Made by a program: the position numbers and the translations under genes. Of a stretch of 29,324 nucleotides of DNA, positions 1,392 through 24,264 are shown piece after piece. The stretch comes from Tardiphaga sp. (GTDB taxonomy: Bacteria > Pseudomonadota > Alphaproteobacteria > Rhizobiales > Xanthobacteraceae), in the NCBI GenBank assembly GCA_014377915.1, contig JACMOT010000132.1:1-29324 (forward strand), given 5' to 3'. A model generated the notes under the pieces. It was not told the origin of the DNA. It did no database searches and was given only the letters and a program-made list of their open reading frames with translations. Each line of letters opens with the position of its first letter. The stretch's first letter is position 1.

Positions 1392-1440
1392 CTAGTACTT
1401 TCACATGAGCGTTAGCGTTTCCACATCCGTGAAAGACTAG
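1392..1440. promoter_or_regulatory. Long inverted repeat upstream of the DLH gene, putative IclR operator
   Basis: CTAGTACTTTCAC (1392-1404) and GTGAAAGACTAG (1429-1440) are inverted copies of each other apart from one extra A, with 24 bp between them. The position, between the IclR stop and the DLH start, and the TTTCAC/GTGAAA core shared with 2223-2243 and 7804-7810 suggest a regulator site. The 24-base loop and lack of a T-run make a terminator less likely, though it could also end iclR transcripts. Confidence 0.45.
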
Positions 1441-1447
1441 GTTGCGA

Positions 1448-2203: not shown

Positions 2204-2222
2204 ATCCGCCCTGGTTCTTTCA

Positions 2223-2243
2223 TTTTCACGAGTATGTAAGTGA
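2223..2243. promoter_or_regulatory. Inverted repeat in the iclR/crotonase divergent promoter region
   Basis: TTTTCAC (2223-2229) faces GTGA (2240-2243) across 10 bp, inside the 103-bp gap between the divergent starts at 2203 and 2307. It shares the TTTCAC/GTGA core with the longer repeat at 1392-1440. It is a plausible autoregulatory IclR site, but the match is short. Confidence 0.35.
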
Positions 2244-2306
2244 CGCGCAGCTCAGCGCAATGACTTTTCTTGCATCCTTGCGTTTGATACGCGGGCTGGA
2301 GCTTCA

Positions 2307-3116: not shown

Positions 3117-3217
3117 CAAGGGCAGCCGCGTGACAGCGCCTCCATAGCAAGGAACTCTTGCGACGAAGCGATCTGGCCACTCGCCTCTGCTTGTGGCTTT
3201 CAGGACTGCTTCGCCGC

Positions 3218-3244
3218 GGAAAAGTCGGCAGGACCGACTTTTCC
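3218..3244. terminator. Hairpin between convergent crotonase genes, likely bidirectional terminator
   Basis: GGAAAAGTCGG (3218-3228) and CCGACTTTTCC (3234-3244) form a perfect 11-bp stem with a 5-base loop. It lies in the 178-bp gap between the convergent stops at 3116 and 3295. The A4/T4 tracts at the stem base suit termination in both directions. Nothing else was recognised in this gap. Confidence 0.7.
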
Positions 3245-3294
3245 AGGCTCCCAATGACGGGACCGGCGTGGGGTCGACGCCAAGACATTCCTGT

Positions 3295-4074: not shown

Positions 4075-4096
4075 GGCATGTCCTTGATCAGTGGTG

Positions 4097-5260: not shown

Positions 5261-5280
5261 GATGATGATTCCGGAACGGT

Positions 5281-6366: not shown

Positions 6367-6398
6367 GTTTATTATTGGATGTCCGGCGCGATACGTCG

Positions 6399-7625
6399 CT
6401 ACATAGGGGCCGGCTCGGCGATACCGATCACGCCGTCAGCCTCCAGACTGCCAATTTCCTCGGGCGTCAGATTAAGCATGCTTGACAGGATTTCGTGGTT
6501 GTGCTGGCCGAGTCGTGGCGAGGGCTGGCTGGGCACCTTATCGACGCCATGCAGCCGCAGTGGACTGTTGGGTACCACGATGCGCCCGAACTGCGGATGG
6601 TCGATCCATTCCAGCATGCCGCGTTCGTGCATGTGCGTGTCGTTGGTGACCTCGATGAGATCCCGAACCGGTGCTGCCGGCACCTTGTACGTGGTGAAGA
6701 TTTTTCCCGCTTCGGCCTTGCTGTGCCGTCCGGTCCATTCCGAAATCAGCCCATCGACCTCTTCGATATGACGAACCCGCAATTCCTTTGACAGATATCG
6801 CGGATCGCCGATTAGGTCAGGGCGCTCGATGGCCTTGAGCAGGTTCGACCAATGGCTTTCGTTGATGCCGATGATGGCGATGAAACCATCGGAGGTCGCG
6901 TAGACATTATACGGTGCGGCAGCCAGCCCCCCGTGCCGGTTTCCGGTGCGCGGCGGCGCGATGCCCTTGTCGTAAACAAAGGCGAGGTTCGAAGCGAGCG
7001 TCGGATATACCGTCTCCTGCATCGCCACCTCCACCAACCGCCCTTTGTTGGTGAAGGTGCGCTCGTACAGCGCAGTCATGATACCGCCATAGAGATGGAT
7101 GCCGCTGAGAAAATCGACCACAGCGGGACCGCACTTGACCGGCGGACCGTCGGGAAAACCGGTAACGCTCATCATGCCCGACGCCGCCTGGACGGTGACG
7201 TCCATCGCGAGATTGTCGCGGTCGCGCCCGGTAATGCCGTATCCCGATCCCGACGCATAGATTAGCAGAGGATTTATTTTCGAAAGCACTGACCAACCGA
7301 CACCAAGCTTGTCCATCACGCCGGGCGCATAATTTTCCAGCAACACATCAGCCTGTGCGGCGAGTTTCTTCAGCACGTCTTGGCCGCGAGGACTTTTCAG
7401 ATTCAGCGTGATATCGCGCTTGTTCGCATTCAGCATAGCGAACGGTACCGCCGCGCCCCTGCTAACCGCCACACGCTGCCGCACCGGCTCGCCTGCCAGC
7501 GGCTCGACCTTAATGACATTGGCGCCGGCCTTTGCCATCAGCAACGTTGCATAGGGGCCTTGATAGACTTGGCCGAGATCAATCACCGTCACGCCGTCTA
7601 GCGGAAGATTCCTGCGTTCAGACAA
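6399..7625 (-). CDS. Class III CoA-transferase (CaiB/BaiF family)
   Basis: This 408-residue enzyme would move CoA from a donor such as succinyl-CoA to the pathway acid, the activation step for the dehydrogenases and crotonases downstream. The N-terminus LPLDGVTVIDLGQVYQGPYAT and the VIKVEP segment are classic for the family. Asp142 in LAMDVTVQAASGMMSVTG is the catalytic aspartate that forms the mixed anhydride. Length is normal. The start is TTG at 7625: GAGG lies about nine bases upstream, the only nearby ATG is out of frame, and the next in-frame ATG would remove the conserved N-terminus. It is first in a four-gene operon with both dehydrogenases and a crotonase. A 228-bp AT-richer region precedes it, ending at the IS3 element. 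Confidence 0.93.
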   Translation of the reverse strand: MSERRNLPLDGVTVIDLGQVYQGPYATLLMAKAGANVIKVEPLAGEPVRQRVAVSRGAAVPFAMLNANKRDITLNLKSPRGQDVLKKLAAQADVLLENYAPGVMDKLGVGWSVLSKINPLLIYASGSGYGITGRDRDNLAMDVTVQAASGMMSVTGFPDGPPVKCGPAVVDFLSGIHLYGGIMTALYERTFTNKGRLVEVAMQETVYPTLASNLAFVYDKGIAPPRTGNRHGGLAAAPYNVYATSDGFIAIIGINESHWSNLLKAIERPDLIGDPRYLSKELRVRHIEEVDGLISEWTGRHSKAEAGKIFTTYKVPAAPVRDLIEVTNDTHMHERGMLEWIDHPQFGRIVVPNSPLRLHGVDKVPSQPSPRLGQHNHEILSSMLNLTPEEIGSLEADGVIGIAEPAPM

Positions 7626-7892: not shown

Positions 7893-8565
7893 CTATGCCG
7901 CCATGTCCTGTTGTTCCAGCATGGCGTAATAGCGTCGCTCGCCTTCGGCCGGCGGAATATGTTCGATGGGCGCCAAGAGCCGCCGGTTGTTGAACCAGTC
8001 CACCCATTAGAGAGTGGCGAACTCAACGGCCTCGAAGCTTCGCCATGGCCCGCGTCGGTGAATCACCTCGGCCCTGTAAGGACCGTTGATGGTTTCGGCG
8101 AGGGCATTTTCATAGCAATCTCCGACGCTGCCAACAGAGGGCTCGACGCCTGCTTCAGCCAGGCGCTCAGTGTACTCAATGGATACGTGTTGGCTTCCTC
8201 TGTCGCTGTGGCGAATGAGCCCGCCACGATGGACTGGCCACCGATCTTGAAGCGTCTGTTCCAGCGCAGCGAGCACGAAGCCGTCGCGCGCCGTGCGCGA
8301 CGCTCGCCAGCCTACGGTCCGGCGAGCATAAGCGTCGATGACGAAGGCGACATAAACGAAACCGCTCCAGGTCGCCACATAGGTAAAGTCGCAGAGCCAG
8401 AGGGCATTCGGCCTTGGCGCCTTGAACTGGCGTTCGACGCGATCCAGCGGGCATATCGCGCCGCTTGGCCACATGGGCGTGGTAGGTCGACGGGGCGATC
8501 CGCAAGACCTCGCAGATCGCCGCGACCTCATGCGCCCCACGATGATCGTCAATGAAGGCGATCAT
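7893..8565 (-). pseudogene. IS3-family transposase orfB, pseudogene
   Basis: This is the remnant of the DDE integrase subunit. It begins with an ATG at 8565 overlapping the orfA stop (ATGA), and reads [12 protein letters not shown] through HAHVAKRRD, the start of the HTH_21 domain. Near 8453-8457 the frame shifts and jumps straight to CPLDRVERQFKAP, so a segment of very roughly 80 residues seen in related transposases is missing. The rve core is then readable: Asp in LWLCDFTYV, Asp in HSDRGSQ and Glu in NALAETING. A TAA interrupts the next part at 8008-8010, after VEFATL; WVDWFNNRR and the natural TAG at 7893 follow in the same frame. Deletion, frameshift and nonsense codon together make function very unlikely. 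Confidence 0.88.
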
Positions 8566-8891
8566 GGCTTGGATCGGCGGTCGAGCTCCGCCATCGCAAA
8601 ATAAGCGCTGGCCTTGCGCAGGATCTCGTTGGCCTGCCGGAGCTCTCGGTTCTCCCGTTCGAGGGCCTTCATCTTGTCGGCCATCTCGGCTGGAACGCCG
8701 GCACGGTGCCCGCTGTCGATCTCTGCCTTCATGACCCAGTCATGCAGCGTCCGCGGGGTGCAGCCGATCTTGGTCGCAATCGAGGTCACGGCCGCCCAGC
8801 GCGACGACTGCTCGCTCGCGTGATCCAGAACCATCCGTGCCGCACGGGCCCGGACCTCGGGTGGAAACTTGTTCGTTGTCTTGCTTGTCAT
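8562..8891 (-). CDS. IS3-family transposase orfA (helix-turn-helix subunit)
   Basis: The 109-residue product is a complete IS3 orfA. It has an N-terminal HTH_Tnp_1 domain, with its helix-turn-helix around residues 35-57 ([18 protein letters not shown]). A leucine-zipper-like helix follows at about 72-98 ([18 protein letters not shown]), ending in [17 protein letters not shown] as in many rhizobial elements. It binds the element's ends and normally joins orfB through ribosomal frameshifting. Here the junction is an ATGA overlap and I saw no A6G slippery run. With orfB broken this protein has no catalytic partner in this copy. It starts 25 bp inside the terminal repeat. Confidence 0.9.
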
Positions 8892-8974: not shown

Positions 8975-9439
8975 CTACTTTGCAGCGGGAAACGCGGCGA
9001 TCATGTCGAGTTCGATCCTGGCGCCAGGCGTCGACAACTGGTTGATGCAGATCGTGGTACTGGCGGGCGTCCAGGAGCCGAAATATTCCTTCAGCACGGC
9101 CACCATGCCGTCCTGGTCGCGGATGTCGGTCAGATACTTCGTCACCTTGACGATGTCGGTCCAGGTCAGACCCTCGTGATCGAGGATCGTCTTGATGGTT
9201 TCCATCGCCCGCCTCGTCTGATCCTCGATCCGATTGGGGTGGTCGTGTTCGCTGATGTCGTGCGGATGCTTGTGATACAGCGGCGACGGCGTCGCGCCGG
9301 AAATGAACAACAGGCCACAGGGACTCTCGACCCGGATCGCCGGCGCATAGGGGATGTCTGGGCGCCGTTCCGGAATGGTCTGGATTTCCTTGATGTGCGG
9401 ATTGGTCGGCGAGGACTGAAACGCTGCCTTGCTGGTCAT
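8975..9439 (-). CDS. RidA/YjgF/YER057c-family protein
   Basis: The 154-residue product belongs to the RidA fold family, trimeric enzymes that hydrolyse enamine/imine intermediates; some members are catabolic, such as 2-aminomuconate deaminase. The family pattern is visible in PCGLLFISGATPSP (near residues 40-53), in the helix QTRRAMETIKTILDHEGLTWTDIVKVTKYLTDI, and in the C-terminal IELDMIAAFPA. The RidA arginine expected in the xxRxx(V/I)xV segment near the C-terminus appears shifted here (GARIELDMIA), consistent with Arg in the usual site. The N-terminus is about 25 residues longer than housekeeping RidA. It is the last gene of the molybdenum-hydroxylase operon, 57 bp after the large subunit, with the IS3 end 34 bp beyond its stop. 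Its position suggests deamination of an imine or enamine made by the pathway. Confidence 0.85.
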   Translation of the reverse strand: MTSKAAFQSSPTNPHIKEIQTIPERRPDIPYAPAIRVESPCGLLFISGATPSPLYHKHPHDISEHDHPNRIEDQTRRAMETIKTILDHEGLTWTDIVKVTKYLTDIRDQDGMVAVLKEYFGSWTPASTTICINQLSTPGARIELDMIAAFPAAK

Positions 9440-9496
9440 CGAGAACTCCGGGACGGGTTGGAAGCTGAAGGAAGTTTGCGCTCGCGCGCAATGATG

Positions 9497-11847
9497 TCAA
9501 ATGGCGTCGCCCGCCATGCGGCCGGCGGGCCGTTCCGCCCTGATCAACTGCCGCAGCCGCGCCGGCGAGACCGGGTGCTCGTTGACGCGGACACCCAGCG
9601 GAGCCAGTGCGTTCTCGATCGCCGCGATGATGCAGGCCGCCGCGGGGATGGTGCCGCCCTCCCCGGCGCCCTTGACCCCGATCGGGTTCAGAGGCGATGG
9701 CGACTGAACGTGGATGATCTCGATGCGCGGCACTTCCGGCGCCGTCGGCAGCAGATAGTCGGCATAGGTCGTGGTCACGGGCTGACCGGCCTCGTCGTAG
9801 ATCATGCGCTCGAACAGCGCGTTGCCGATGCCGTGCACGACCCCGCCGCGCACCTGGCCATCGACCAGCATCGGATTGATCAGCAGGCCGCAGTCATGGC
9901 CGACGATGTAACGGGAGATCTTCACCTGGCCGGTGTCGATATCGACTTCAACTTCGGAGAGATGCGTGCCATTGGCAAAGGTGTTCTTGCGCGCTTCGTA
10001 ATAGGCCGTGGCGGCAAGGCCCGGCTCGACGCCGGGCACGATCGGAATGCCGCTCATGCCGTTCAGCCGCGAGGCAATCTGGCCGAGCGGCACATGCAGG
10101 GCGGCCGCGCCGACCACACGCACCGCGCCGTCTTCCAGCACCAGATCGGCTTCGGAGGCTTCGAGCATGTCGCTCGCCACCTTGAGCGCCTTGGCGCGGA
10201 CCGCGACGGCCGCCAGATGCACGGAGGAGCCCGCGGTCACCGCAGTGCGGCTGGCGATGGCGCCGATGCCGAGCGGAAACTTCGCCGTGTCAGCGGCTTC
10301 GACGACGATATCCTCGACGCGCACGCCAAGAATGTCAGCGCAGATTTGCGCAAATATCGTGGCGTGGCCCTGCCCCTGGCTTGCCGCGCCGGTGGAGATA
10401 ACGACCTTGCCGCTCGGCTCGACGCGAATGGTCGCCCCTTCGAACGGCGCAAGCCCGGTATCCTCCGTATAGCTGGCGATGCCGCGGCCGATATAGCGCC
10501 CTTTGGCGAGCGCCACTGCCTGCCGTTTGGCAAAATCGCAACCGGCACGTTCCAGCACGGCCTCCAGGCAGGCATGATAGTCGCCGCTGTCGTAAGTGAT
10601 CGGCGAACCGTCGCGCGCGTTCATGCCGGTGAGATAAGGGAACTGGTCCTTGCAGACAAAACTACGCCGCCGCACCTCAGCCGGATCCAGCGACAATTCG
10701 CGCGCCACCCGATCGGCCAGCCGCTCCAGCACGAAGCACGTCGTCGGACGGCCGGCGCCGCGAACCGGCGTGTTGGGCACCAGATTGGTGAACACGATGT
10801 CGATCTTGATATCGACGGCCCGCAGCGCATAGGGCCCGGGAAACGCGGCCATCGACGTCACCGCCGCGCCGAGCCCGTAGGGAACGTAGCCGCCATTGTC
10901 GTGCAGGCAGCGGCCGCGAACGGCCAGCAGGCGCCCGTCGGCATCGGCCGCGACTTCCAGCGTCCAGGCTTGGTCGCGCTGCTGCGCGGTCGCGACAAAA
11001 TGCTCGCTGCGGTCCTCGACCCATTTGACGGGACGCTGCAGCTTCAAGGCCGCCAGCGGCAGCACAATCTCTTCAGGATAGAACACGCCCTTGGGGCCGA
11101 AGCCGCCGCCGACGTCCGGCGCGATCACGCGCACCGTGCGCTCCTCGCGGCCAAGATGATCGGCGATCAGGCGGCGCACCATGTGCGGCATCTGGGTCGA
11201 GGTCCACACCGTCAGCCCGTCGCCCATCGGATCCGGCATCGCGACGACGCCGCGGCATTCCATGGAGTGGCAGCCGCCGCGGTGCACTTCGAAAGTTTCC
11301 GCAAACACGTGTGGAGCTTTCGCGAATATCTTCTCCACCTCGCCGAAACGGCCGTGCAGTGACGCCACCAGATTGTCCGGCGAGTCAGCGTGCACGCGCG
11401 GCGCAGAAGGATCGAGCGCCCGGCGCCAGTCGACAACAGCCTCGAGCACCTCGTAGTCGACCTCGACCAGCGCCGCGGCATCCTCGGCGATCGAGCGGCT
11501 CTCGGCGATCACGACCGCGATCGGCACGCCGACGTGGCAGACTTCGCGATCGGCGAGCGGCTGGTAGTCCAGGGGCTGCTTGACGTTGCCGACCGGAACC
11601 GTATGCGGCAGTCGCTTACTGGCAAGCCCGCGCAGATCCGCCGCGGTGTAGACGGCGACGACGCCGGACAATTGTCGCGCCGCCGCGACATCGACGCCGA
11701 CGATGCGCGCATGCGCATGGGCGGAACGCACGAAGGCGGCATGCAGCACACCGGCGATGGCGAGATCATCGAGGTAGCGGCCCTGCCCCCTGATCAGCCT
11801 GGGATCCTCGACCCGACGCACCCTGGATCCGAAATATCGCACGCCCA

Positions 11848-11848
<1 letters not shown>
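9497..11848 (-). CDS. Xanthine dehydrogenase-family molybdopterin-binding large subunit (operon B)
   Basis: This is the catalytic subunit of a molybdenum hydroxylase, 783 aa from the ATG at 11848. The N-terminus has the Ald_Xan_dh_C domain (residues about 20-130, RGQGRYLDDL onward). The molybdopterin domains carry DVGGGFGPKG (246-254), PVRGAGRPT (361-369) and GVKGAGEGG with the catalytic Glu at about 730. The active-site loop reads VRGAGR, not the CSFR loop of true carbon monoxide dehydrogenase, so CO is not expected as substrate. Enzymes of this type put a water-derived hydroxyl on an aldehyde or an electron-poor ring carbon. Its ATG overlaps the small-subunit TGA by one base (TGATG). The frame is open upstream to 11923, but that would overlap the small subunit heavily. 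No FAD subunit gene lies in this operon. Confidence 0.95.
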
Positions 11849-12360
<512 letters not shown>

Positions 12361-12361
12361 G

Positions 12362-12652
12362 CTATTCGCCCTCCAGGAAATACACCCGCGAGGTCGACGC
12401 CTCGTCGCGGATCGCGAGGATGCGCTGGAACTCTGGCGAGTGAAACCAGGCCAGCGCGCGCTCGCGGCTCGGAAATTCCAGCACCACCACGCGCGGGCTC
12501 GGTGCCTCCCCGACAATCGGTTCAGGTGCACCGCGCGAGACGTACTGGCCGTCGAACAGCGCCAGCGTCGCCGGCACCTGGTCCTGATAGTCCTTGTAGC
12601 GCACCGGGTCGGTGACGATCAGCTCGTTGACGATGATGCTGCGCATCTTCAT
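12362..12652 (-). CDS. DUF1330-family small protein
   Basis: The 96-residue product looks like a dimeric alpha/beta ferredoxin-like-fold protein of the DUF1330 group. It shows VNELIVTDPVRYKDYQDQVPATLALFDGQYVSRG at the start, then VVLEFPSRERALAWFHSPEFQRILAIRDEAS, the pattern of strand-helix-strand with the conserved W-F/Y-SPEY segment. The ATG at 12652 overlaps the preceding stop (ATGA). These proteins have no firmly established chemistry; several relatives of the fold bind aromatic or polyketide-like small molecules. Its place between an AA_synth protein and the molybdenum-hydroxylase subunits implies a role in handling the same metabolite, possibly an isomerase- or cyclase-like step. The family call is good, the function open. 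Confidence 0.85.
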   Translation of the reverse strand: MKMRSIIVNELIVTDPVRYKDYQDQVPATLALFDGQYVSRGAPEPIVGEAPSPRVVVLEFPSRERALAWFHSPEFQRILAIRDEASTSRVYFLEGE

Positions 12653-13185
12653 GACGCCTTCTTCACTCGCGCGCGCGGCCGTCCGCCGTCGGCCAGAGCC
12701 ACGATCACCAGGATCTCGTCCGGCCGCGGCGCATTCGCCACCATGACGCTCAGCGTATCGAACTGGTCGAAAACCCACACGTCATCCTTGTCGCCGAGCG
12801 GCACGTCGATGGTCGCGCCGACCGCGCCGATCTTGACGTTGGATGGAATGATCGCCTGGCCGCCGCCGATCGCCGCCCGAATCGGTTTGCCCATTCGCGG
12901 GTGCAGGATCGCGGGCGCGTGTTCCAGATCGCCGGAGGTGCCGACGATGGCGGCCTTGCCGTAGGAGATCGCCGGCCGTTTCAACGCCGTCAGCGCCTCG
13001 CGGACCAAGAACTCGCCGAGCTCCGCGCCGAAGCCGATCAGTTCTTCGAGGTCATCCTGGACACGGCCGGCGAGCGGATTGGCGATCACCGCGCAGGCGG
13101 CGACGCGCGTCACCGGCGCATAGGCGGGTTGCCCGCCTTCGAAATAGATCACGTCCTTGATCGTGGTGAGCCGTCGGATTTCCAT
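12649..13185 (-). CDS. AA_synth (DUF1185) family protein
   Basis: This 178-residue protein resembles the family annotated as 'amino acid synthesis' (DUF1185). The opening MEIRRLTTIKDVIYFEGG and the run VTRVAACAVIANPLAGR, then GKAAIVGTSGDLEHAPAILHPRMG and IDVPLGDKDDVW, are characteristic by my recollection. The family name rests on thin genetic evidence and the reaction is not known. In this operon the gene begins immediately after the amidohydrolase stop (TGA followed directly by ATG at 13185) and ends in an ATGA overlap with the DUF1330 gene. That makes a catabolic role on an amide, imide or ring-cleavage product more likely than biosynthesis. No signal peptide or membrane segment is visible, so it should be cytoplasmic. 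Confidence 0.8.
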   Translation of the reverse strand: MEIRRLTTIKDVIYFEGGQPAYAPVTRVAACAVIANPLAGRVQDDLEELIGFGAELGEFLVREALTALKRPAISYGKAAIVGTSGDLEHAPAILHPRMGKPIRAAIGGGQAIIPSNVKIGAVGATIDVPLGDKDDVWVFDQFDTLSVMVANAPRPDEILVIVALADGGRPRARVKKAS

Positions 13186-14163
13186 TCAGGCCTCCAGCAT
13201 GCGGGTGAAATTGCGGCGCAGGATCAGGTCGACCTGATCGGCTGGCAGTGCATTTTTGACGAAGTTGACCGGATCCGGCTCGCCCAGAGGAAACGGCGCA
13301 TCGCTGCCGAGCATCAGATGCTCGACCGGCACCACGTCGGCGACGTAGCGCAGGATCGCCGGCTCGAAACAGATGGTGTCGAAATACAGCCGGCGCAGAT
13401 AGTCGCCGACCGGCATGGTCAGTGTGCTCGACAGCGCTGGATTGGTATCGACCTCGCGCTGCATGCGCGCCCGCAGCACCGGGCTGAACGCGCCGGCATG
13501 GGCACAGACCAGCTTCAGCGTTGGCCAGCGGTCGAGAAAGCCGGAGCAGATCATCTTCAGGATGTTGATGGTGTTGTCGAACAGATAGCCGGCGACGATG
13601 GTCAGTTCGTATTCACGGGTTCGGTCCTTGCCGAGTGGGTCGGCGGGATGCACGAACAGCGGCACGTTGAGATCGACCGCCGCCTGGAAGATCGGCTCGA
13701 ACTGGGCGTCGTGCAGATAGACGCCGCGCACGTTGGAGGCGATGTGGCCGCCGACAAAGCCGTGATCACGGACGCAACGGCGCAATTCCGTTGCCGCCGC
13801 CTGCGGGTCCTGCATCGGCAACAGCGCCCAGCCGCCGAACCGCGTCGGGTCCGAGGCGATGGAAGAGGCCAGCGCGTCGTTGAAGACCCGCGCCGCTTCG
13901 GTCGCGATCCTGGCGTCGAGATGATAGTCGATGAACGGCGTCGCCAGCGACAGAATAGTCCGCTCGACGCCATCGCGCTGCATCCGCTCGCGCTGCTTGT
14001 CCATCTCGAAGAACGTCGTGTTAAGCCCGAAATGCATGCCGCGGATGTCGAGGTCGATCAGATCGCCCTCGCGGCGCTTGATCCGGATCGCGAACTCGTC
14101 CCGCGTCTGCGCAAAGCGAAAGAATTCGTCCGGTACAAAGTGGCAGTGAATGTCGGTAATCAT
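13186..14163 (-). CDS. Amidohydrolase family protein, ACMSD-like (operon B)
   Basis: The 325-residue product is a metal-dependent TIM-barrel enzyme of the amidohydrolase-2 group, which includes ACMS decarboxylase, gamma-resorcylate decarboxylase, OMA hydratase and lactone hydrolases. Metal ligands are in place: His6 and His8 in DIHCHFVP, His172 in LFVHPAD, His222 in CAHAGAF and Asp288 in LGSDAPFP. It should decarboxylate, hydrate or hydrolyse a ring-derived acid in the cytoplasm. The ATG at 14163 is chosen; a TTG at 14169 is in frame but overlaps the livF stop. Only two bases separate it from livF, and the next gene follows without a gap, so importer and enzymes are one transcript. A second, distantly similar amidohydrolase lies in region C. 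Confidence 0.92.
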   Translation of the reverse strand: MITDIHCHFVPDEFFRFAQTRDEFAIRIKRREGDLIDLDIRGMHFGLNTTFFEMDKQRERMQRDGVERTILSLATPFIDYHLDARIATEAARVFNDALASSIASDPTRFGGWALLPMQDPQAAATELRRCVRDHGFVGGHIASNVRGVYLHDAQFEPIFQAAVDLNVPLFVHPADPLGKDRTREYELTIVAGYLFDNTINILKMICSGFLDRWPTLKLVCAHAGAFSPVLRARMQREVDTNPALSSTLTMPVGDYLRRLYFDTICFEPAILRYVADVVPVEHLMLGSDAPFPLGEPDPVNFVKNALPADQVDLILRRNFTRMLEA

Positions 14164-14165
14164 CG

Positions 14166-14870
14166 TCAAAGTCCCAGGTAAGCCGTCTTCAGCCGCTCGT
14201 CATTGAGCAGCGCGCTGCCCTTGCCTTCCATGACGATGCGGCCGTTCTCCAAGACGTAGGCGCGGTCGGCGGTGTGCAACACGTGGTGCACGTTCTGCTC
14301 GACGATCATCACCGTCAGGCCCTTGGCGCGCAGGTCGATGATCAGGTCGAACAGCAATTTCACGTAGATCGGCGCGAGGCCTTCGGTCGGCTCGTCGAGC
14401 AGCAGGACGCGCGGGCGGGCCATCAGCGCGCGGCCGATTGCCAGCATCTGTTGCTCGCCGCCGCTCATCGAACCCGCAACCTGCCGGCGTCGCTCGGCCA
14501 GCACCGGCAGCAGTTCGAACACCTCGTCGAGCGTCTGCCGCGCCACGGCGCGCGCTCCGGCCGCGTAAGCGCCGATCTCTAGATTTTCCAGCACCGTCAT
14601 GAACGGAAACAGCCGCCGCCGCTCCGGCACCAGCACGAGTCCCTTGGCGGGCCGCTCGAAGGCCGGCAGGCCTTCCATGGCGACGCCTTCGAGCAGCACC
14701 TCGCCCTGGTAGGTGGTGCGCAGCCCCGCCAGCGTGAACATCAGCGTGCTCTTGCCGGCGGCGTTGGCGCCGACCAGGCCGACGATCTCGCCGGCGCCGA
14801 CGGTCAGGTTAACGTCGTGCAAGACCTGCACGGCGCCGTAGGAGGCATTTAAGTTGCGAACTTCAAGCAA
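14166..14870 (-). CDS. livF: ABC transporter ATPase, LivF-type
   Basis: This 234-residue ATPase energises the branched-chain-amino-acid-type importer of operon B. The Walker A is GANAAGKST (34-42), the signature MSGGEQQ (135-141) and the Walker B VLLLDEP (155-161). PERRRLFPFMTVLENL is the LivF hallmark. The start is TTG at 14870, eight bases inside livG, with GAGGAG seven bases ahead (within the livG end). It overlaps livG and precedes the amidohydrolase by two bases. It acts at the inner membrane with LivG, LivH and LivM. Confidence 0.95.
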   Translation of the reverse strand: MLEVRNLNASYGAVQVLHDVNLTVGAGEIVGLVGANAAGKSTLMFTLAGLRTTYQGEVLLEGVAMEGLPAFERPAKGLVLVPERRRLFPFMTVLENLEIGAYAAGARAVARQTLDEVFELLPVLAERRRQVAGSMSGGEQQMLAIGRALMARPRVLLLDEPTEGLAPIYVKLLFDLIIDLRAKGLTVMIVEQNVHHVLHTADRAYVLENGRIVMEGKGSALLNDERLKTAYLGL

Positions 14871-15591
14871 GGATCATCTCCTCACCGAGATAGGCTTTCA
14901 CGACAGCGGGATCGCGCGCCATCACCGCCGGCGTGCCCTCCGCAATCTGCTTGCCGCGGTTGATGACCACCATACGCGTCGCCGTCTTCATGATGGCGTA
15001 GAGCACATGCTCGACCCAGATCACCGTGATGCCGCGCACAGGCAGCTCGGCTACGAACTTCGTCATCGCGCCGACTTCCGTCGGAGTCAGGCCGGCCATA
15101 ATCTCGTCGAACAGCACCAGCTTCGGCCGCATCGCCAGCGCGCGGGCAACCTCGAGACGTTTCAGCAGGCCAACCGTCAGCGCGCTCGCCGGCGATCCAG
15201 CGTAATCGGCCAGGCCGACATCCGCCAGGGTGGCTTCCGCGAGCTTGCGGGAGCCCGCGATCGACTTCTCGCGAAGAAAAGCGCTAAGCATGACATTCTC
15301 GATGACCGACAGCTGCCGGTACGGCTTCGGGATCTGAAAGGTGCGGGCGACGCCAATTCGCGCCATGTCATGCGCCTTCCAGCCGGTGACCGGCTTGCCT
15401 TCGAACAGGGTCTGCCCCGAGGACGGCGGCAGCACGCCAGCGATCAGGTTGAACAGTGTGCTCTTGCCGGCGCCGTTTGGCCCGATCAGGCCGAGCAACT
15501 CGCCAGGCTGCACGGAAAAGGAGACGTCGTTGACCGCCATCGTCGTGCGGAACGAGCGGCTCACATTGCGGACTTCCAGCAGCGCGCTCAT
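14863..15591 (-). CDS. livG: ABC transporter ATPase, LivG-type
   Basis: This is the second ATPase of the importer, 242 aa. The Walker A GPNGAGKST (37-45) and Q-loop TFQIPKP (Gln86) are standard. The signature helix reads LTVGLLKRLEVARAL (138-152) rather than the usual LSYGxQR form, and after Walker B the sequence is DEIMAGL instead of DEPAAG. Both changes are seen in a subgroup of aromatic-acid-associated LivG proteins as I recall, and the rest of the fold is normal, so activity is expected. The ATG at 15591 overlaps the livM stop by four bases (ATGA), and its end overlaps livF. Confidence 0.94.
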   Translation of the reverse strand: MSALLEVRNVSRSFRTTMAVNDVSFSVQPGELLGLIGPNGAGKSTLFNLIAGVLPPSSGQTLFEGKPVTGWKAHDMARIGVARTFQIPKPYRQLSVIENVMLSAFLREKSIAGSRKLAEATLADVGLADYAGSPASALTVGLLKRLEVARALAMRPKLVLFDEIMAGLTPTEVGAMTKFVAELPVRGITVIWVEHVLYAIMKTATRMVVINRGKQIAEGTPAVMARDPAVVKAYLGEEMILA

Positions 15592-16601
15592 CGGAACAGC
15601 CTCCAGCGCTTCAGCTTGTTCAGGGCGCCGGCGAGGCCTGCCGGGAAATAAAGCATCACGATGATCAGGCCGAAGCTGTATATCACAAGATGCAGGCCGG
15701 CCGCGGCATTACCGAGATGCGACCGCAGCAATTCGGACAAGGGCGTTATCAGGAATGAGCCCAGCACTGGGCCAATCGCGGTACCGAGCCCGCCGACGGC
15801 CGGCAGCAACGCGAACTGGAACGAGAGCTCCGGCGAAATCACGTAAGTGGGATCGAGATAGAGGAAATACTGCGCGAACAGTGAGCCGCCGATCCCGGTC
15901 AAGGCCGCGCTCAACGCCATCGCCAGCGCCCGGCCGAGCAGCGGGTTGACCCCGGCCGCGCTGGCCGCGTCCTCATTGTCCCGGATGGCAAACAGGTAAT
16001 AGCCGTAGCGCGACGCCTCGAGCGATTTGGTGATGGCATAGACAAAGACCAGGTAGCCCAGCATCAGCGCCGCATAGGACTGTTTCGATGCGAACACCAT
16101 GCCGGTCAGGCTGGACATCGGCGGGATCGACAGGCCCTCGGGGCCGCCGGTAAGCACCGCCCAGTTCAGCGCGATGATGCGGACCACTTCGGCAAACGCC
16201 AGCGTCGACAGGATGAAGAACGGGCCGCGCAACCGCGCGCAGATCAGCGCCAGTACGGCACCAAACACGGCGGCGATCAGGGCGCCAACCCATATGCCGA
16301 CCCAGGGCGAGATGCCGTAACGCGTCAGCAGGATTGTCGACGTATAAGCGCCGACACCGAAAAACGCCGAATGGCCGAAAGAGATCAGCCCGGCATAGCC
16401 CCCGGCGATATTCCACGCCAGCGCCAGCCCGGCGAACAGGAAACTGAGCAGGATGACGTCGCGCAGGCTGGGCGCGATGCCTGACCCGACCAGCGCTACG
16501 CAGATAGCCAGCAGCGCCAGTTCGAACCACGAGATACGGCCGCGCTCGGGCAGCACGGCGATGCGTCGGGATGATACCTGATTGGTTGTGATGCTCGACA
16601 T
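15588..16601 (-). CDS. livM: ABC transporter permease, LivM-type
   Basis: This 337-residue inner-membrane permease has a polar N-terminus of about 25 residues followed by eight to ten hydrophobic segments. The family motifs NIAGGYAGLISFGHSAFFGVGAY (written here only as its core, GYAGLISFGHSAF) and AVGGLGTAIGPVLG are present. The latter region contains the cytoplasmic loop that meets the ATPases. It pairs with LivH to form the channel for the ligand delivered by the operon's receptor. The start at 16601 follows the livH stop by four bases. Confidence 0.94.
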   Translation of the reverse strand: MSSITTNQVSSRRIAVLPERGRISWFELALLAICVALVGSGIAPSLRDVILLSFLFAGLALAWNIAGGYAGLISFGHSAFFGVGAYTSTILLTRYGISPWVGIWVGALIAAVFGAVLALICARLRGPFFILSTLAFAEVVRIIALNWAVLTGGPEGLSIPPMSSLTGMVFASKQSYAALMLGYLVFVYAITKSLEASRYGYYLFAIRDNEDAASAAGVNPLLGRALAMALSAALTGIGGSLFAQYFLYLDPTYVISPELSFQFALLPAVGGLGTAIGPVLGSFLITPLSELLRSHLGNAAAGLHLVIYSFGLIIVMLYFPAGLAGALNKLKRWRLFR

Positions 16602-16605
16602 GGCC

Positions 16606-17490
16606 CTACTCGTTCATGCCAACGGTCGCAGCGCCCTGCTGACCGAGCAGGCCGTTGGGCCTAAAGACCATCACCAGCAGGAACAGCACGAAAAAGAAAA
16701 GCTGACCGAACGCCGGCGCGATATAGTAGCTGCTCAGCGACTGCATGACGCCGACGCAGATGCCGCCGAACAGCGCGCCCTCGATGCTACCCATGCCGCC
16801 AAGCACGACGATAACGAAGGCGATCAGCACGAAATTCAGGCCGACCGAGGGGAACACCGAGAACAGCGGCATCATGACGCAGGCCGCGAGGCCCACCAGC
16901 GCCGAACCGCCGGCGAAGGTGATGAGGAAGATGCGCGGCACCGGGATGCCCATCAGCATGGCGGCCTCGCCGTCCTGCACCGGGGCGCGGGTTGCCTTGC
17001 CGAGATAGGTCTTCTTGATCATCCATTGCAGAGCGACAGTGCACAGGATGGTGATCAGGAAGCCGAGCAATAGCTCGATCTTGAGATAGATCGGGCCAAT
17101 GGTCAGCGAGCGGCCGAATATCGGCGGGATGTCGCGCAGATCCGCGGTCATCGCCATCAGAGCGGCGTTCTGCAGGAAGATCGACAGTGCCATGGTGGCG
17201 AACACCACCACCAGATGCGGCTTGTCGAGCGCCGGGCTGATGACCAGCCGGTAGACCACCGCACCGAACAGGAACATCGCCGGCACGATCGCGATCGCCG
17301 CAATATACGGGTTGAGCCCGAACAGTTGTGAGATCGCCCAGGCGCCGTACATGGCGATCATCAGGAATTCGCCATGGGCGAAGTTGACGATGCGCAGCAC
17401 GCCGAAGATCAGGGTCAGGCCGATGCTCATCAGCGCATAGACGCTGCCGATCAGCACTCCGGATAATACAAGCTGGATGAAGGTGCTCAT
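16606..17490 (-). CDS. livH: ABC transporter permease, LivH-type
   Basis: This 294-residue permease starts FIQLVLSGVLIGSVYALMSIGLTL and continues IFGVLRIVNFAHGEFLMIAMY, both diagnostic for LivH. It has about eight hydrophobic segments, and VVLGGMGSIEGALFGG near the C-terminus is the ATPase contact loop. The ATG at 17490 lies 49 bp after the receptor gene, and that gap holds a stable hairpin. It is the first membrane gene of the importer. Confidence 0.95.
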   Translation of the reverse strand: MSTFIQLVLSGVLIGSVYALMSIGLTLIFGVLRIVNFAHGEFLMIAMYGAWAISQLFGLNPYIAAIAIVPAMFLFGAVVYRLVISPALDKPHLVVVFATMALSIFLQNAALMAMTADLRDIPPIFGRSLTIGPIYLKIELLLGFLITILCTVALQWMIKKTYLGKATRAPVQDGEAAMLMGIPVPRIFLITFAGGSALVGLAACVMMPLFSVFPSVGLNFVLIAFVIVVLGGMGSIEGALFGGICVGVMQSLSSYYIAPAFGQLFFFVLFLLVMVFRPNGLLGQQGAATVGMNE

Positions 17491-17507
17491 GAGATGGACC
17501 GAGCGGC

Positions 17508-17532
17508 CGCGCGAGGTTCAGGCCCTCGCGCG
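17508..17532. other. GC-rich hairpin between receptor and permease genes
   Basis: CGCGCGAGG (17508-17516) and CCTCGCGCG (17524-17532) form a perfect 9-bp stem with a 7-base loop, immediately after the receptor stop at 17540 and before livH at 17490. No T-run follows. Such intercistronic hairpins after a receptor gene commonly protect the upstream mRNA or partly end transcription, giving more receptor than permease. Confidence 0.6.
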
Positions 17533-17539
17533 AGCCGGA

Positions 17540-18808
17540 TCAGCGATTGCTCCACTTCGGCATCGGTACCCCGGCGGCTTCGCTGGTGGCGAGGCTCGGC
17601 GGGTAGACTTCTTCGTTGCCGGCTTTGGTCCACTGCCAGACGCCGATCGACGCCCGCAGGTTCTGCCCGGCATCCTTAGGATCATCAGCCCAATCGAAAT
17701 TGGTAAACTTGATGCCGCTGCCATTGACCAGCGAGCCCTCTGGCAGATCGAGCTTGAGTGCGATATCGCGCAACTCGTCCGGCTGGAAGGTCTTGGCCTT
17801 CGGCAGCACCTCGGTGAACAGCGCCCACACCGCGGAAAATCCCGCAGCGGCGTGACCCGCGGGCGCGCGCTTCAGCTTGGCCTCGTAGCGCTTGTAGAAT
17901 TCCTCGGCGACTTTCTTGATCTCCGGCTTCAGCACATTCGCGTTCACCTTCGGCGGGAAGTCGGCAACGAAGATACCGACGACGGAATCACCGATCGAGT
18001 CGCGCAGGTCGGGTGACGAATAGCCGGCACTGACGCCAACAAAGGCGTTGACGTTGAAGTCCAGTTCCTTGGCCTTGCGCTGGAACAGGATGGCATCGTT
18101 GGGGAACGAGATGGCGATCAGGATATCCGGCGCGACGTCCTTGAGCTTCTGCACGACGGGCGTCATGTCGGTCGCGGTCTGGTCGTAGCCCTCATCATAC
18201 ACAAGCTTGATGCCTTTGGTCTGCGAGTACGCGCGAATGCCATCGCCGACCGACTTGCCGAATGCGCGATTTTCCCACAATAGCGCGATCTTCAACTCGC
18301 CAGCGGGCTTGTTGAGACGCTTGGCGAGATCGTCGAACACGAAGTCGACGGCGGCCTGACCATATTTGCGCGCCGGCGCGCCGACCTGGAAGGTGTACTT
18401 GAAGCCACGGCGGGTGATGACCTCGGCAGCACCCGTGGTCTCCCAGTGAAACGCCCCGTTACGCTCAGCCGCCTGGCTCACGGCAATCGCGATCGGCGAC
18501 GCGAACGAGCCGGTCGTAATCTTGATGCCTTCCTTGGATATCAGCCGCTCGGTCTCGCTGATAGCGGCATTCGGCGTGGTCGCGTCGCCTTGCACGTACT
18601 CCACCTTGCGCCCGTTGACGCCGCCGCGCTCGTTGATCATCTCTCGGGCGATCTGCATCGCTTCCCAGTTCTCGATGCCGTTCTTCGCCAGCGGTCCGGT
18701 GAACGGCAGCAGCACGCCGATCTTGATCGGCTCCTGCGCCCCTGCCGACATCGTGGTCGCGAGCAGCAGGCTCGCAAACATCGCGCTCAAACGAAGAAGA
18801 CGTCGCAT
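17540..18808 (-). CDS. Branched-chain amino acid-type ABC transporter solute-binding protein (operon B)
   Basis: This periplasmic receptor of 422 aa is the first gene of operon B. The signal peptide MRRLLRLSAMFASLLLATTM ends at an AGA-Q site near residue 25, and the mature protein opens IKIGVLLPFTGPLAKNG, the Peripla_BP_6 start. DEGYDQTATDMTPVVQKLKD and ILIAISFPNDAILFQRKAKEL belong to the second lobe. The ATG at 18808 has GGAG eight bases ahead; an upstream frame to 18847 adds residues unlike a signal peptide. The adjoining enzyme genes suggest the ligand is an aromatic or heteroaromatic compound rather than leucine. A divergent LysR gene starts 127 bp upstream. Confidence 0.94.
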   Translation of the reverse strand: MRRLLRLSAMFASLLLATTMSAGAQEPIKIGVLLPFTGPLAKNGIENWEAMQIAREMINERGGVNGRKVEYVQGDATTPNAAISETERLISKEGIKITTGSFASPIAIAVSQAAERNGAFHWETTGAAEVITRRGFKYTFQVGAPARKYGQAAVDFVFDDLAKRLNKPAGELKIALLWENRAFGKSVGDGIRAYSQTKGIKLVYDEGYDQTATDMTPVVQKLKDVAPDILIAISFPNDAILFQRKAKELDFNVNAFVGVSAGYSSPDLRDSIGDSVVGIFVADFPPKVNANVLKPEIKKVAEEFYKRYEAKLKRAPAGHAAAGFSAVWALFTEVLPKAKTFQPDELRDIALKLDLPEGSLVNGSGIKFTNFDWADDPKDAGQNLRASIGVWQWTKAGNEEVYPPSLATSEAAGVPMPKWSNR

Positions 18809-18860
18809 TGGTTCAGCTCCGGTGCAATTCGGGTCCCAGCGAGGCAAAGCCTAACGCCGA

Positions 18861-18901
18861 CATTTACATGCAGCAATCGAATTTTTTCCATACATTGTAT
18901 G
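18861..18901. promoter_or_regulatory. Putative LysR-regulator binding region with repeated CATTnnATGCAG elements
   Basis: This lies in the 126-bp gap between the divergent receptor and lysR starts. CATAC-ATT-GTATG (18889-18901) is a perfect 5-bp inverted repeat. CATTTACATGCAG (18861-18873) and CATTGTATGCAG (18893-18904) are near-direct repeats about 32 bp apart, and ACGTATG follows at 18908. The spacing resembles the recognition and activation half-sites of LysR-type promoters. The gap is also conspicuously AT-rich near 18881-18900. Confidence 0.5.
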
Positions 18902-18934
18902 CAGAAAACGTATGATGTGTGAACGGAGACGACG

Positions 18935-19849
18935 ATGGACAAGCGCAAGATCGAATACTTCTTCTCGGTGATCGAACATGGCAACCTGAGCAGCGCCGCG
19001 CAGGCGCTGCGCGTGTCGCAGCCGACGCTGAGCCGCCAGATCCAGGCGATCGAGGAAGAATTCCAGACGCCGTTGTTCGTGCGCGGCGGCCGCGGCATGA
19101 TGCCGACCGAGGCTGGAAAGCAACTGCATGAAGGCCTGCAGAGCATCGAACGCCAGTTGCGCCTGTTGAAAAGCGACGTCGCGGCGGTCACGCTGGAGCC
19201 TTCCGGCGAAGTGGCGTTCGGCATTCCGCCCTCGCCGCGCGGGCTGATCGCTGTGCCGCTGGTCAAGAAGTTCAACGCGGCCTACCCGCGGATTGTGGTG
19301 CGCATCGCGGAAGAAACCAGCGGCCAACTGCGCGATCTCGTCGCCAACGGAACCCTCGACGTGGCGATCACCAACACCAACGAGCCGACACAGGGCATTT
19401 CGTCGCAGCACCTCGGTCGCGAGCGCATGCTGCTGGTTGGGCCGGCCAGCGCCAAACTATCGATGCGCAAGGAGACATCGATTGAATCTTTGGCAGGCCT
19501 GCCGCTGATTCTGACAATGCGGCCGAACAGCTTGCGGCTAACCATCGAGACCGGGCTCGGCCGGCATGGTTTGCAGCCCAATATCCGTTTCGAGGCCAAC
19601 ACACTGCCGCTGATGACCGACCTGGTTGCTGCCGGCCTCGGTTACACCGTGCTGCCGGCTTGCGGCGTGCGCGCCTTGTTGAAGCAAGGCGACATCTCAG
19701 CTAGCCCGATCAGAGATCTGTCGATCACCTGGATGGTCGCACGGCCGAAGACACGGTCTCTTGGCGTGGCCGCCGAACGGTTCCACGACATGGTGTGCGA
19801 GTTCGGCCGCAAGCAGATCCGCGACGGCGTATGGGAGCCGGCGAGTTAG
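18935..19849 (+). CDS. LysR-family transcriptional regulator
   Basis: The 304-residue product has the N-terminal LysR helix-turn-helix (residues about 1-60: NLSSAAQALRVSQPTLSRQI, then LFVRGGRGMMPTEAG) and a periplasmic-binding-like effector domain from about 90 (GEVAFGIPPSPRGLIAVPLV onward). Length is normal. The ATG at 18935 has CGGAGA just upstream. It is divergent from operon B and most likely controls it, typically as an activator that needs the pathway substrate as co-inducer. The effector domain resembles the Nac/Cbl-like group with a conserved PP-S start. The gene is followed by a dead hydrolase gene on the same strand. Confidence 0.94.
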   Translation: MDKRKIEYFFSVIEHGNLSSAAQALRVSQPTLSRQIQAIEEEFQTPLFVRGGRGMMPTEAGKQLHEGLQSIERQLRLLKSDVAAVTLEPSGEVAFGIPPSPRGLIAVPLVKKFNAAYPRIVVRIAEETSGQLRDLVANGTLDVAITNTNEPTQGISSQHLGRERMLLVGPASAKLSMRKETSIESLAGLPLILTMRPNSLRLTIETGLGRHGLQPNIRFEANTLPLMTDLVAAGLGYTVLPACGVRALLKQGDISASPIRDLSITWMVARPKTRSLGVAAERFHDMVCEFGRKQIRDGVWEPAS

Positions 19850-20553: not shown

Positions 20554-21327
20554 TTACCGTTTGCGCCACGGCACGACGGCGCGTTCGATCGCGTCGATTC
20601 CGGCGTTCATGACGAAGCCGATGATCGCGATGACGAACAGGCCGACATACATTCTTTCAACATCGAACAGCTCCCACGCATTCCAGATCATGTAGCCTAG
20701 ACCTTCCTTGGCGCCGATCATTTCGGCGATCGCGATCAGCACCAGGCCCATGCCGGCACCGAGCTTGATGCCGGTCATGATCAGCGGCAGCGCGCCCGGT
20801 AAGGCCACGGTGCGGAACATGTTGAAACGGCTGGCCCCGAAATTGTGGCCGACGTCGAGAAAGATCGGCGGGATCTGCCGCACCCCCGCGGCGGTGTTGA
20901 TCACCACTGGGTAGAATACTCCAATCGCCACCATCGCGATCTTCGAGCTCTCGCCGAGCCCGAAGATCAGAAGGATCAGCGGCAGCAGCGAGCTTTTCGG
21001 GATCGGGTAAGTCGCGGAGATCAAGGGATCGAACGCGGCGCGCACCGGACGATACAGGCCGATGGCAAGGCCCAGCACGATTGCCGGCAAACAGCCGACC
21101 ACAAAACCGACGACGAGACGATACAGGCTGGCGATGGTGTGCTTCCATAGCGCCCCGGAAGATGCCAGTTCGAAGAGGTGAATGATGATGTTGCTGGGCG
21201 CGGGAAAAAAACGCGTGTCGATCAGATGGCTGCGCGCGCAGATTTCCCACAGTCCGAGCAGCACCAGCGGCGACAGGATGCTGATGGTCCGGTCGTTCAA
21301 GACTGGCGAGGCGGTATGATCGCTCAT
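20554..21327 (-). CDS. ABC transporter permease, SsuC/TauC-like
   Basis: This inner-membrane permease of 257 aa belongs to the nitrate/sulfonate/taurine-type importer class. It has about six hydrophobic segments. The EAA loop lies in GASRFNMFRTVALPGALPLIMTGIKLG, shown here only by its core GASRFNMFRTVALPGALP, where it contacts the ATPase. The N-terminus SPLVLLGLWEICARSHLIDTRFFPAPS is typical of the group. The ATG at 21327 overlaps the ATPase stop (ATGA). It is the last gene of operon C and converges with the dead hydrolase gene, 27 bp away. Confidence 0.93.
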   Translation of the reverse strand: MSDHTASPVLNDRTISILSPLVLLGLWEICARSHLIDTRFFPAPSNIIIHLFELASSGALWKHTIASLYRLVVGFVVGCLPAIVLGLAIGLYRPVRAAFDPLISATYPIPKSSLLPLILLIFGLGESSKIAMVAIGVFYPVVINTAAGVRQIPPIFLDVGHNFGASRFNMFRTVALPGALPLIMTGIKLGAGMGLVLIAIAEMIGAKEGLGYMIWNAWELFDVERMYVGLFVIAIIGFVMNAGIDAIERAVVPWRKR

Positions 21328-22151
21328 GCGCGCTGCCCCGGTTCGCGGCTGCGGGCACGGTCGACCTCTTCGCGCAATTGCGCCCAGATGTCATAGACCA
21401 ACTCGCCGTAAGCCGGCGTGTGGCGCAGTTCGACCACATTGCGCGGCCGCGGCAGGCCGACGGGAACGATGGTCTTGATGCGACCCGGACCGGCGGTCAT
21501 CACCATGATGCGATCGCCGAGCGTCACCGCCTCGTCGACGCTGTGGGTGATAAACACCACCGTCTTGCGGGTTTCCTCCCAGATCCGCAGCAGTTCTTCG
21601 TGCAGAAGCGTCTTGTTCTGCTCGTCCAGCGCCGAGAACGGCTCGTCCATCAGCAGGATCACGGGTTCGTTGGCGAAGGCGCGGGCGATAGAGACGCGCT
21701 GCCGCATGCCGCCGGAGAGCTGGTGCGGATAGAGGTCGCGGGCGCCCAACATTCCGGTCTTGTTGAGATAGTGACCGACTACGTCGGCGATGGTCGACGG
21801 CGCGGCGTGCCGCATCTTGAGTCCGTAGGCGGCATTGTCCCAGACCGTCATCCACGGAAACAACGAGTCGCCCTGGAACACCATCGCGTTTTGTCGGTGG
21901 CCCGGCGCGGAATTGCCGATCAGGATCTCGCCCTCGCTCGGCGCATCAAGGCCGGCGAGAATGCGCAGCAACGTCGTCTTGCCGCAGCCGGAGGGACCGA
22001 CCACCACAAAGAACGTACTGGCCGGGATGTCGAGCGTGATGCGATCGAGCGCCACGGCTGCGCCATGGCGCTTGGTGACGTCTCGCAGGCTAATCTTAGG
22101 CGACGTCGTCGGTTCACTCTCTGCCACATCCGTCGAAAAATGTATCGCCAT
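21324..22151 (-). CDS. ABC transporter ATPase, SsuB/TauB-like
   Basis: This 275-residue ATPase drives the importer of operon C. The Walker A GPSGCGKTT lies at about 52-60, the signature LSGGMRQ at 145-151, the Walker B ILLMDEP at 165-171, and THSVDEA holds the switch histidine. The C-terminal tail after VPVGLPRPR is usual for the nitrate/taurine class. The ATG at 22151 is chosen, with AGGA about nine bases upstream; a GTG at 22157 lies too close to that site. It starts 28 bp after the receptor gene and overlaps the permease. Confidence 0.95.
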   Translation of the reverse strand: MAIHFSTDVAESEPTTSPKISLRDVTKRHGAAVALDRITLDIPASTFFVVVGPSGCGKTTLLRILAGLDAPSEGEILIGNSAPGHRQNAMVFQGDSLFPWMTVWDNAAYGLKMRHAAPSTIADVVGHYLNKTGMLGARDLYPHQLSGGMRQRVSIARAFANEPVILLMDEPFSALDEQNKTLLHEELLRIWEETRKTVVFITHSVDEAVTLGDRIMVMTAGPGRIKTIVPVGLPRPRNVVELRHTPAYGELVYDIWAQLREEVDRARSREPGQRA

Positions 22152-22179
22152 GGCCACTTTCCTTCTGCAGTCGCTTCCA

Positions 22180-23208: not shown

Positions 23209-23250
23209 GATCGTCCCTCTGAAAGACACGTTGAAATGATGGCGGCGAGG

Positions 23251-24255: not shown

Positions 24256-24264
24256 GGCGTTCCC

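Follow-up and report, generated by a model that had tools for sequence, protein, structure and literature searches.

The soil bacterium Tardiphaga sp. carries eleven genes, all on the minus strand (8975..18808), in the 29,324-nucleotide stretch of contig JACMOT010000132.1 analysed here as the window. Together with a divergent gene for a LysR-type regulator, they may form a catabolic operon under LysR control, which would serve an N-heteroaromatic acid or a ring lactam obtained from such an acid, a reading to which a probability of about one half is given. The link to N-heteroaromatic compounds, proposed in an earlier note on this DNA, is supported by the gene neighbourhoods of the AA_synth family and by the molybdenum hydroxylase, whose best PDB match is a quinoline 2-oxidoreductase. 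The operon is divisible: conservation marks out LysR//receptor-LivHMGF-amidohydrolase-AA_synth as the unit, with an optional tail. The features are the following, with presence counted among the loci of ten relatives.

18935..19849, plus strand: LysR-type regulator, divergent (PF00126, PF03466; 9/10)
18809..18934, no strand: shared promoter region (ATACG...TAT motif and block CGATTG-TGCATG; 36 invariant columns in 8 sequences)
17540..18808, minus strand: periplasmic substrate-binding receptor of a Liv-type ATP-binding cassette (ABC) importer (Peripla_BP_6 PF13458, 9.6e-47; 9/10, 58-96% identity)
16606..17490, minus strand: LivH permease (BPD_transp_2 PF02653, 6e-40; 9/10)
15588..16601, minus strand: LivM permease (BPD_transp_2 PF02653, 5.7e-41; 9/10)
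14863..15591, minus strand: LivG ATPase (ABC_tran PF00005, PF12399; 9/10)
14166..14870, minus strand: LivF ATPase (ABC_tran PF00005; 9/10)
13186..14163, minus strand: Amidohydro_2 enzyme resembling aminocarboxymuconate-semialdehyde (ACMS) decarboxylase (ACMSD) (PF04909, 2.9e-32; 10/10)
12649..13185, minus strand: AA_synth protein, formerly DUF1185 (PF06684, 3e-58; 2qtp, 7.9e-43; 10/10)
12362..12652, minus strand: DUF1330 protein, optional (PF07045, 5.3e-21; 1/10)
11848..12360, minus strand: molybdenum hydroxylase [2Fe-2S] small subunit, optional (Fer2/Fer2_2, PF00111, PF01799; proposed TTG start; 4/10)
9497..11848, minus strand: molybdopterin large subunit, optional (Ald_Xan_dh_C/MoCoBD_1/MoCoBD_2, PF01315/PF02738/PF20256; 4/10)
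8975..9439, minus strand: RidA/YjgF-family protein, optional (Ribonuc_L-PSP PF01042, 4e-18; 4/10)

Each gene is a single open frame. With the start codons proposed in this analysis, the spacing from the receptor gene to RidA is 49, 4, -4, -8, 2, 0, -4, 1, -1 and 57 bp, the last being the largest gap within the operon; the AA_synth gene starts directly at the end of the amidohydrolase gene. The proposed starts are ATG 14163 for the amidohydrolase (325 amino acids), ATG 12652 for DUF1330 (96 amino acids), TTG 12360 for the small subunit of the molybdenum hydroxylase and ATG 11848 for its large subunit (783 amino acids).

Conserved core and optional tail

The loci read in the ten relatives are those of Bradyrhizobium sp. 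URHD0069 (G001, locus L001), G002 (locus L002) and eight further genomes. They were retrieved with the amidohydrolase or the AA_synth protein as bait; the presence of these two is thus not independent, and that of the importer and of LysR is. The amidohydrolase and AA_synth genes are adjacent in all ten loci. In nine, the whole series receptor-H-M-G-F-amidohydrolase-AA_synth is found in the same order, with 48-97% protein identity, a recurrence beyond chance. The tenth, L002, retains only LysR, amidohydrolase and AA_synth, and has instead a polar amino-acid-type importer (identified by eye) and an aminotransferase IV. LysR is present in nine loci; no match was found at G409, where the contig extends for only about 1.5 kb further.

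The last four genes are variable. CoxS and CoxL, the two subunits of the molybdenum hydroxylase, follow AA_synth in four loci (G402, G429, G001, G271). RidA occurs in G402, G429, G001 and G044, in the last directly after AA_synth, and DUF1330 in G429 only. An eleventh genome, G495, has DUF1330, CoxS, CoxL and RidA in an operon split by contig ends. As an 88% identical copy of DUF1330 lies on a separate contig in G168, this gene has moved independently.

The earlier note had described eleven co-directed, tightly packed genes of the families given above, and the Pfam matches, open frames and spacing confirm this description. Its claim that they make one functional unit was not borne out, given that the molybdenum hydroxylase and RidA are each found in four of the ten loci and DUF1330 in one. 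The joint occurrence that it proposed to look for, of AA_synth, DUF1330, amidohydrolase-2 and CoxSL, is complete in G429, and in the broken locus of G495, and fails in the other nine loci; the gene order is conserved (9/10) from the importer through the amidohydrolase to AA_synth, and not beyond.

The identities of the molybdenum hydroxylase to that of the window (93, 88, 78 and 67%) fall in step with those of the core. In the Liv-type loci without CoxL (G044, G168, G450, G533, G409), nothing above 56% identity to the CoxL of the window was found elsewhere in the genomes. On an unrooted tree of seven core proteins, the distribution is patchy, and three gains or five losses explain it. The enzyme is favoured here as an old member of the operon that was probably lost repeatedly, because of the shared position after AA_synth and the identities tracking the core; gain is also possible. 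Simple loss is not forced by the tree, as three gains compete with five losses.

An amidohydrolase homologue (E up to 1e-80) was found in 8 of 296 genomes drawn from the family of URHD0069, G001 included, and, at E up to 1e-70, the draws from the order (1/397) and from the phylum (1/398) yielded only G001 itself. A homologue of the amidohydrolase in Tardiphaga sp. vice352 is 96% identical. AA_synth homologues at E up to 1e-40 are present in 258 of 265 genomes of the genus of URHD0069, the window type in only three of them (best E <=1e-85, 77-80% identity; the next is at 2.7e-49, 52%). No copy of the operon was identified in the plasmid collection, where no megablast match extends over more than 2% of the query.

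LysR and the receptor gene lie 126 bp apart, and this gap aligns with that of seven relatives (G271, G409 and L002 were left out), and the invariant columns, motif and block listed above come from this alignment. This fits a single divergent promoter, putatively controlled by LysR. A scan for promoter and terminator consensus sequences was uninformative (5 and 10 sites versus 3.2 and 11.2 expected).

Gene neighbourhoods of the AA_synth family

The AA_synth protein of the operon scores above the curated cut-off of PF06684 and has the family fold (predicted local distance difference test, pLDDT, of the model 95). The family counts two crystal structures, released in 2007-2008. The Toblerone-fold cyclic amide hydrolases gave only a weak, tied match, on which no kinship with AA_synth is claimed; such kinship would call for more in common than the chorismate-mutase/YjgF arrangement. 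According to PMC2954203, the name AA_synth stems from a fold like that of Bacillus chorismate mutase and from Liv-type neighbours, and not from an activity. No activity is shown for PF06684 in the two papers on the family covered here.

An alignment of close homologues was scanned against contigs from 84,980 species genomes. This gave 575 confirmed places, of which the analysis used the best 80, with fetched flanks of up to 10 kb per side, some of them short, for a first count of genes. Among these 80 loci, 39 have a gene like that of 6-hydroxynicotinate reductase, 33 an enamidase-like gene, 34 UPF0280, 34 MarR, 41 a molybdenum hydroxylase and 36 a Liv-type importer. The names enamidase and 6-hydroxynicotinate reductase are those that we take to apply to the two neighbour clusters; the reductase name has the backing of PMC3511419 and of database records that carry the annotation "6-hydroxynicotinate reductase" within an identical gene order. 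Counted with hidden Markov models (HMMs), a reductase, enamidase, amidohydrolase_2 or HyuA/HyuB lies within 5 kb of AA_synth in 52 of the best 80 loci.

These neighbours are concentrated close to AA_synth. In the same best 80 loci, UPF0280 has 38 copies at less than 1.5 kb, is absent from 1.5-5 kb and reappears with 11 copies at 5-10 kb; for the enamidase-like gene, the numbers are 17, 2 and 14. In finer bins, UPF0280 counts 0 copies at 3-5 kb and 5 at 5-7.5 kb, the enamidase-like gene 1 and 11. This conserved cluster is described, with two proteins of unknown function, in PMC3511419, and we infer that these two are UPF0280 and AA_synth.

The same association recurs within the genus and in the genomes that carry the operon. 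Of the 30 loci taken from the genus (L085-L114), three are of the window type; the reductase, UPF0280 and the receptor are each matched in 26 of the 30. Nine further AA_synth places were read in the operon genomes. Five have an enamidase-like gene 3-44 bp away (L133, L134, L135, L136, L142) and L141 has one a gene away; a Pfam scan that covered L133, L136, L141 and L142 confirmed Amidohydro_1 in all four. L137 is near a molybdenum hydroxylase, and the neighbours at L138 and L139 are DUF1989 and FAA_hydrolase. In another phylum, a molybdenum hydroxylase, AA_synth and an Amidohydro_1 protein are encoded one after the other on a plasmid of Thermomicrobium roseum.

Judged by these neighbours, a link of PF06684 to N-heterocycle catabolism is better supported than the family name, which looks misleading. 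The counts offer an alternative to the amino-acid-synthesis label, namely, a partner of amidohydrolases in N-heterocycle catabolism. It is tentatively suggested, at clearly less than even odds, that PF06684 proteins do not serve amino-acid synthesis and are instead enzymes or obligate partners, working with amidohydrolase-superfamily ring openers on the lactam or enamide intermediates of N-heterocycle breakdown, and that the operon represents a second, reductase-free type of pathway with an ACMSD-like partner. Its single importer, single metal enzyme and single AA_synth make it a compact system for the question of what PF06684 does.

A tandem AA_synth pair followed by HyuA/HyuB was seen at L069:9411-14719 and L080:9414-14440 (the latter by eye). 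The HyuA/HyuB of L069 match the caprolactamase CapA/CapB, below the cut-off.

Enzymes, proposed route and alternatives

The large subunit of the molybdenum hydroxylase matches quinoline 2-oxidoreductase best in the PDB (516.6 bits, 1.2e-153; residues 8-777 aligned), followed by carbon monoxide (CO) dehydrogenase (490.1 bits) and 6-hydroxypseudooxynicotine dehydrogenase (457.8). Its hammerhead and MoCo domains and the two-domain [2Fe-2S] small subunit place the enzyme among the molybdenum hydroxylases of the xanthine oxidase family. CO dehydrogenase (CoxL form I) was ruled out: the loop PVRGAGR stands opposite VAYACSFR of 8uem and has no Cys, the form I active-site loop being, as we assume, AYxCSFR, with a Cys. 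For NF040766, the large subunit scores 816.5 bits, below the cut-off of 950.

The enzyme had been described as two-subunit, which holds for the operon, if not necessarily for the working enzyme. The operon has S and L without M: searched by tblastn with the flavin adenine dinucleotide (FAD)-binding M subunit of a second cluster in the window, it gave no match, this M finding only itself (27059-27934). In G001, an FAD-subunit gene lies between CoxL and RidA, on the opposite strand (L001:13449-14273; 39% identical to the M subunit of the window). Past RidA in G402, the stretch L123:7357-11557 contains another molybdenum hydroxylase, with its MoCo domains in reverse order and a [2Fe-2S] subunit, and a flavoprotein like that of flavocytochrome c sulfide dehydrogenase.

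For the amidohydrolase, the best PDB matches are ACMS decarboxylase (2.2e-36) and the 5-carboxyvanillate and gamma-resorcylate decarboxylases. His6, His8, His172, His222 and Asp288, which we take to be the metal and catalytic set, are invariant in an alignment of 11 rows and align with ACMSD. Source annotations often name the protein "aminocarboxymuconate-semialdehyde decarboxylase", and the third PDB match of RidA is 2-aminomuconate deaminase (6.9e-10). Taken together, these matches recall a lower aromatic-amine pathway, in which the amidohydrolase and RidA would act as in the 3-hydroxyanthranilate/2-aminomuconate route, where aminocarboxymuconate semialdehyde is first decarboxylated and the product then deaminated, and the molybdenum hydroxylase as an aldehyde dehydrogenase. 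Such a pathway is nevertheless unlikely here. Neither a 3-hydroxyanthranilate dioxygenase nor an aldehyde dehydrogenase was seen among the window proteins scanned or read by eye, RidA is absent from six of the ten loci, and AA_synth would be left without a role. Moreover, a Gly (10 of the 11 rows) stands opposite Arg47 of ACMSD, presumably the residue that binds the substrate carboxylate, but the alignment there is of low confidence and the aligned chain, 4ign, has Ala. This mismatch is weak evidence against ACMSD identity, which the sequence comparison leaves conceivable without supporting it.

A precedent for RidA in the N-heteroaromatic reading is the Rid6 protein of a nicotine cluster (PMC7688666). 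At L130:8087-9373, a 428-amino-acid protein with three Ribonuc_L-PSP stretches adjoins a second Liv-type importer.

For the catabolism of an N-heteroaromatic acid or ring lactam, the following route is proposed from protein families and gene neighbourhood, the substrate and the chemistry of AA_synth being inferred. The compound would be taken up by the Liv-type importer. Where present, the molybdenum hydroxylase would introduce oxygen at a position adjacent to the ring nitrogen to yield a hydroxy-heterocycle or lactam, which the ACMSD-like metal enzyme may decarboxylate or whose ring it may hydrolyse. AA_synth, co-produced with this enzyme, would handle a lactam or enamide intermediate, by a tautomer shift or ring opening, or form a complex with the amidohydrolase; RidA would hydrolyse the released enamine or imine. 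Strains without the molybdenum hydroxylase would use an already hydroxylated compound. The optional enzyme predicts two kinds of strains, those using the unhydroxylated compound and those using only the hydroxylated one. The importer, hydroxylase and amidohydrolase logic of the earlier note is supported. Its authoring model knew of no characterised pathway with exactly this set, and none was found in the open-access literature searched.

Several observations weigh against this route. None of the operon proteins was recognised as a ring dioxygenase, an amidase, a deformylase or a 6-hydroxynicotinate reductase, so that the proposed route stops short of central metabolism. Decarboxylation by the amidohydrolase is a family-level guess, and the Gly opposite Arg47 does not favour it. 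The core importer is not obligatory, as seen at L002. In 28 of the best 80 loci, every ring enzyme counted is missing within 5 kb of AA_synth. The neighbours are mixed, with no single theme, in 25 loci without nicotinate-type genes; their 80 neighbour proteins include Amidase in 4, GST_N_2 in 4 and Amidohydro_1 in 3 cases. On plasmid record M382, AA_synth lies between an aminotransferase and an M20 hydrolase.

The aminotransferases at M382 and L002, the polar amino-acid importer of the latter and the best PDB match of the receptor, named probable Leu/Ile/Val-binding protein, would suit a core devoted to a compound resembling an amino acid, in line with the Pfam name, with the molybdenum hydroxylase as an unrelated passenger. 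This is the least probable of the explanations considered: the name derives from fold and neighbours, as said above; Liv-type importers also occur in 27 of the 39 loci with the reductase-like gene among the best 80; and the hydroxylase diverges in step with the core.

The last point of this kind concerns the nature of the ring. If the substrate were a ring imide or had a ring without nitrogen, like that of a lactone, coumarin or furan, the amidohydrolase would open a lactone or cyclic amide, the molybdenum hydroxylase would oxidise an aldehyde or a ring carbon and AA_synth would be an accessory. The amidohydrolase superfamily also includes the LigI-type lactonases, and HyuA/HyuB lie within 5 kb of AA_synth in 4 of the best 80 loci. 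According to PMC7913881, HcdD, a PF06684 protein, is encoded in an operon for 7-hydroxycoumarin, which has an oxygen ring, and its proposed stimulating effect could not be shown. HcdD indicates either ring chemistry in a wider sense or a role without catalysis, which also tells against the N-heteroaromatic reading. The largest group of AA_synth neighbourhoods, however, resembles N-heterocycle catabolism, and the closest PDB homologue of the hydroxylase is the quinoline enzyme, so that a nitrogen-free ring or ring imide, while the strongest competitor, is still rather improbable.

Surroundings and comparison with known systems

A second importer-plus-enzyme cluster occupies 20554-28860 of the window. 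It consists of a BPD_transp_1/ATPase/NMT1-type importer, a divergent IclR regulator, another Amidohydro_2 protein (29% identical to the first) and a three-subunit molybdenum hydroxylase. The logic is the same with an unrelated importer, and a single pathway may comprise both clusters. Past LysR in the closest relative, G402, a fragment (L124:3395-3517) is 90% identical to 15% of the permease of the second cluster, which suggests that the latter was once adjacent to the operon there. On the other side, from 83 bp past the RidA stop, remnants of an IS3-type transposase (HTH_Tnp_1, rve; 8007-8891) are found, accompanied by an ALIL pseudoknot that scores 102.6 bits for Rfam RF01497. Further downstream, on the operon strand, 565-7625 encodes a CoA-transferase III, an acyl-CoA dehydrogenase, an enoyl-CoA hydratase, an IclR regulator and a dienelactone hydrolase, a possible lower pathway.

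The reductive nicotinate cluster of the Azorhizobium/Bradyrhizobium type comprises nicotinate hydroxylase, 6-hydroxynicotinate reductase, enamidase, UPF0280, AA_synth and a Liv-type importer. The operon shares with it a molybdenum hydroxylase, a Liv-type importer, AA_synth and an enzyme of the amidohydrolase superfamily. However, no 6-hydroxynicotinate reductase was found in the window, whether by tblastn or with an HMM built from the reductase-like cluster, nor were enamidase (query and HMM) or UPF0280; membership in this cluster was, thus, ruled out. Both amidohydrolases of the window are PF04909, the one in the operon being Amidohydro_2 and not Amidohydro_1. The AA_synth proteins are only ~50% identical, and the regulator is LysR, whereas the nicotinate loci mostly have MarR. 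In the 11 genomes with the amidohydrolase, the reductase is unmatched in eight and present in G044, G168 and G002.

The pic cluster (Alcaligenes/Bordetella) also combines a picolinate dehydrogenase, PicA, presumably of the molybdenum type, with an amidohydrolase-family decarboxylase, PicC. The latter acts in picolinate breakdown, according to PMC10142695, and is likened to the window amidohydrolase by published role and family, not by sequence. The scanned window proteins include no 2,5-dihydroxypyridine dioxygenase, deformylase, maleamate amidase or maleate isomerase of the pic type.

In the 2-aminomuconate pathway, which we take to be the nba type with ACMSD and 2-aminomuconate deaminase, the enzymes are matched in the PDB by the amidohydrolase and RidA of the window. 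The window differs from it by AA_synth and the importer, which are extra, and by the dioxygenase and aldehyde dehydrogenase, which were not seen.

The quinoline 2-oxidoreductase system, with a subunit make-up that we take to be QorLMS, has different pathway genes, and the operon differs from it in having no co-directed gene for an FAD subunit. Its large subunit is the closest PDB sequence to that of the window.

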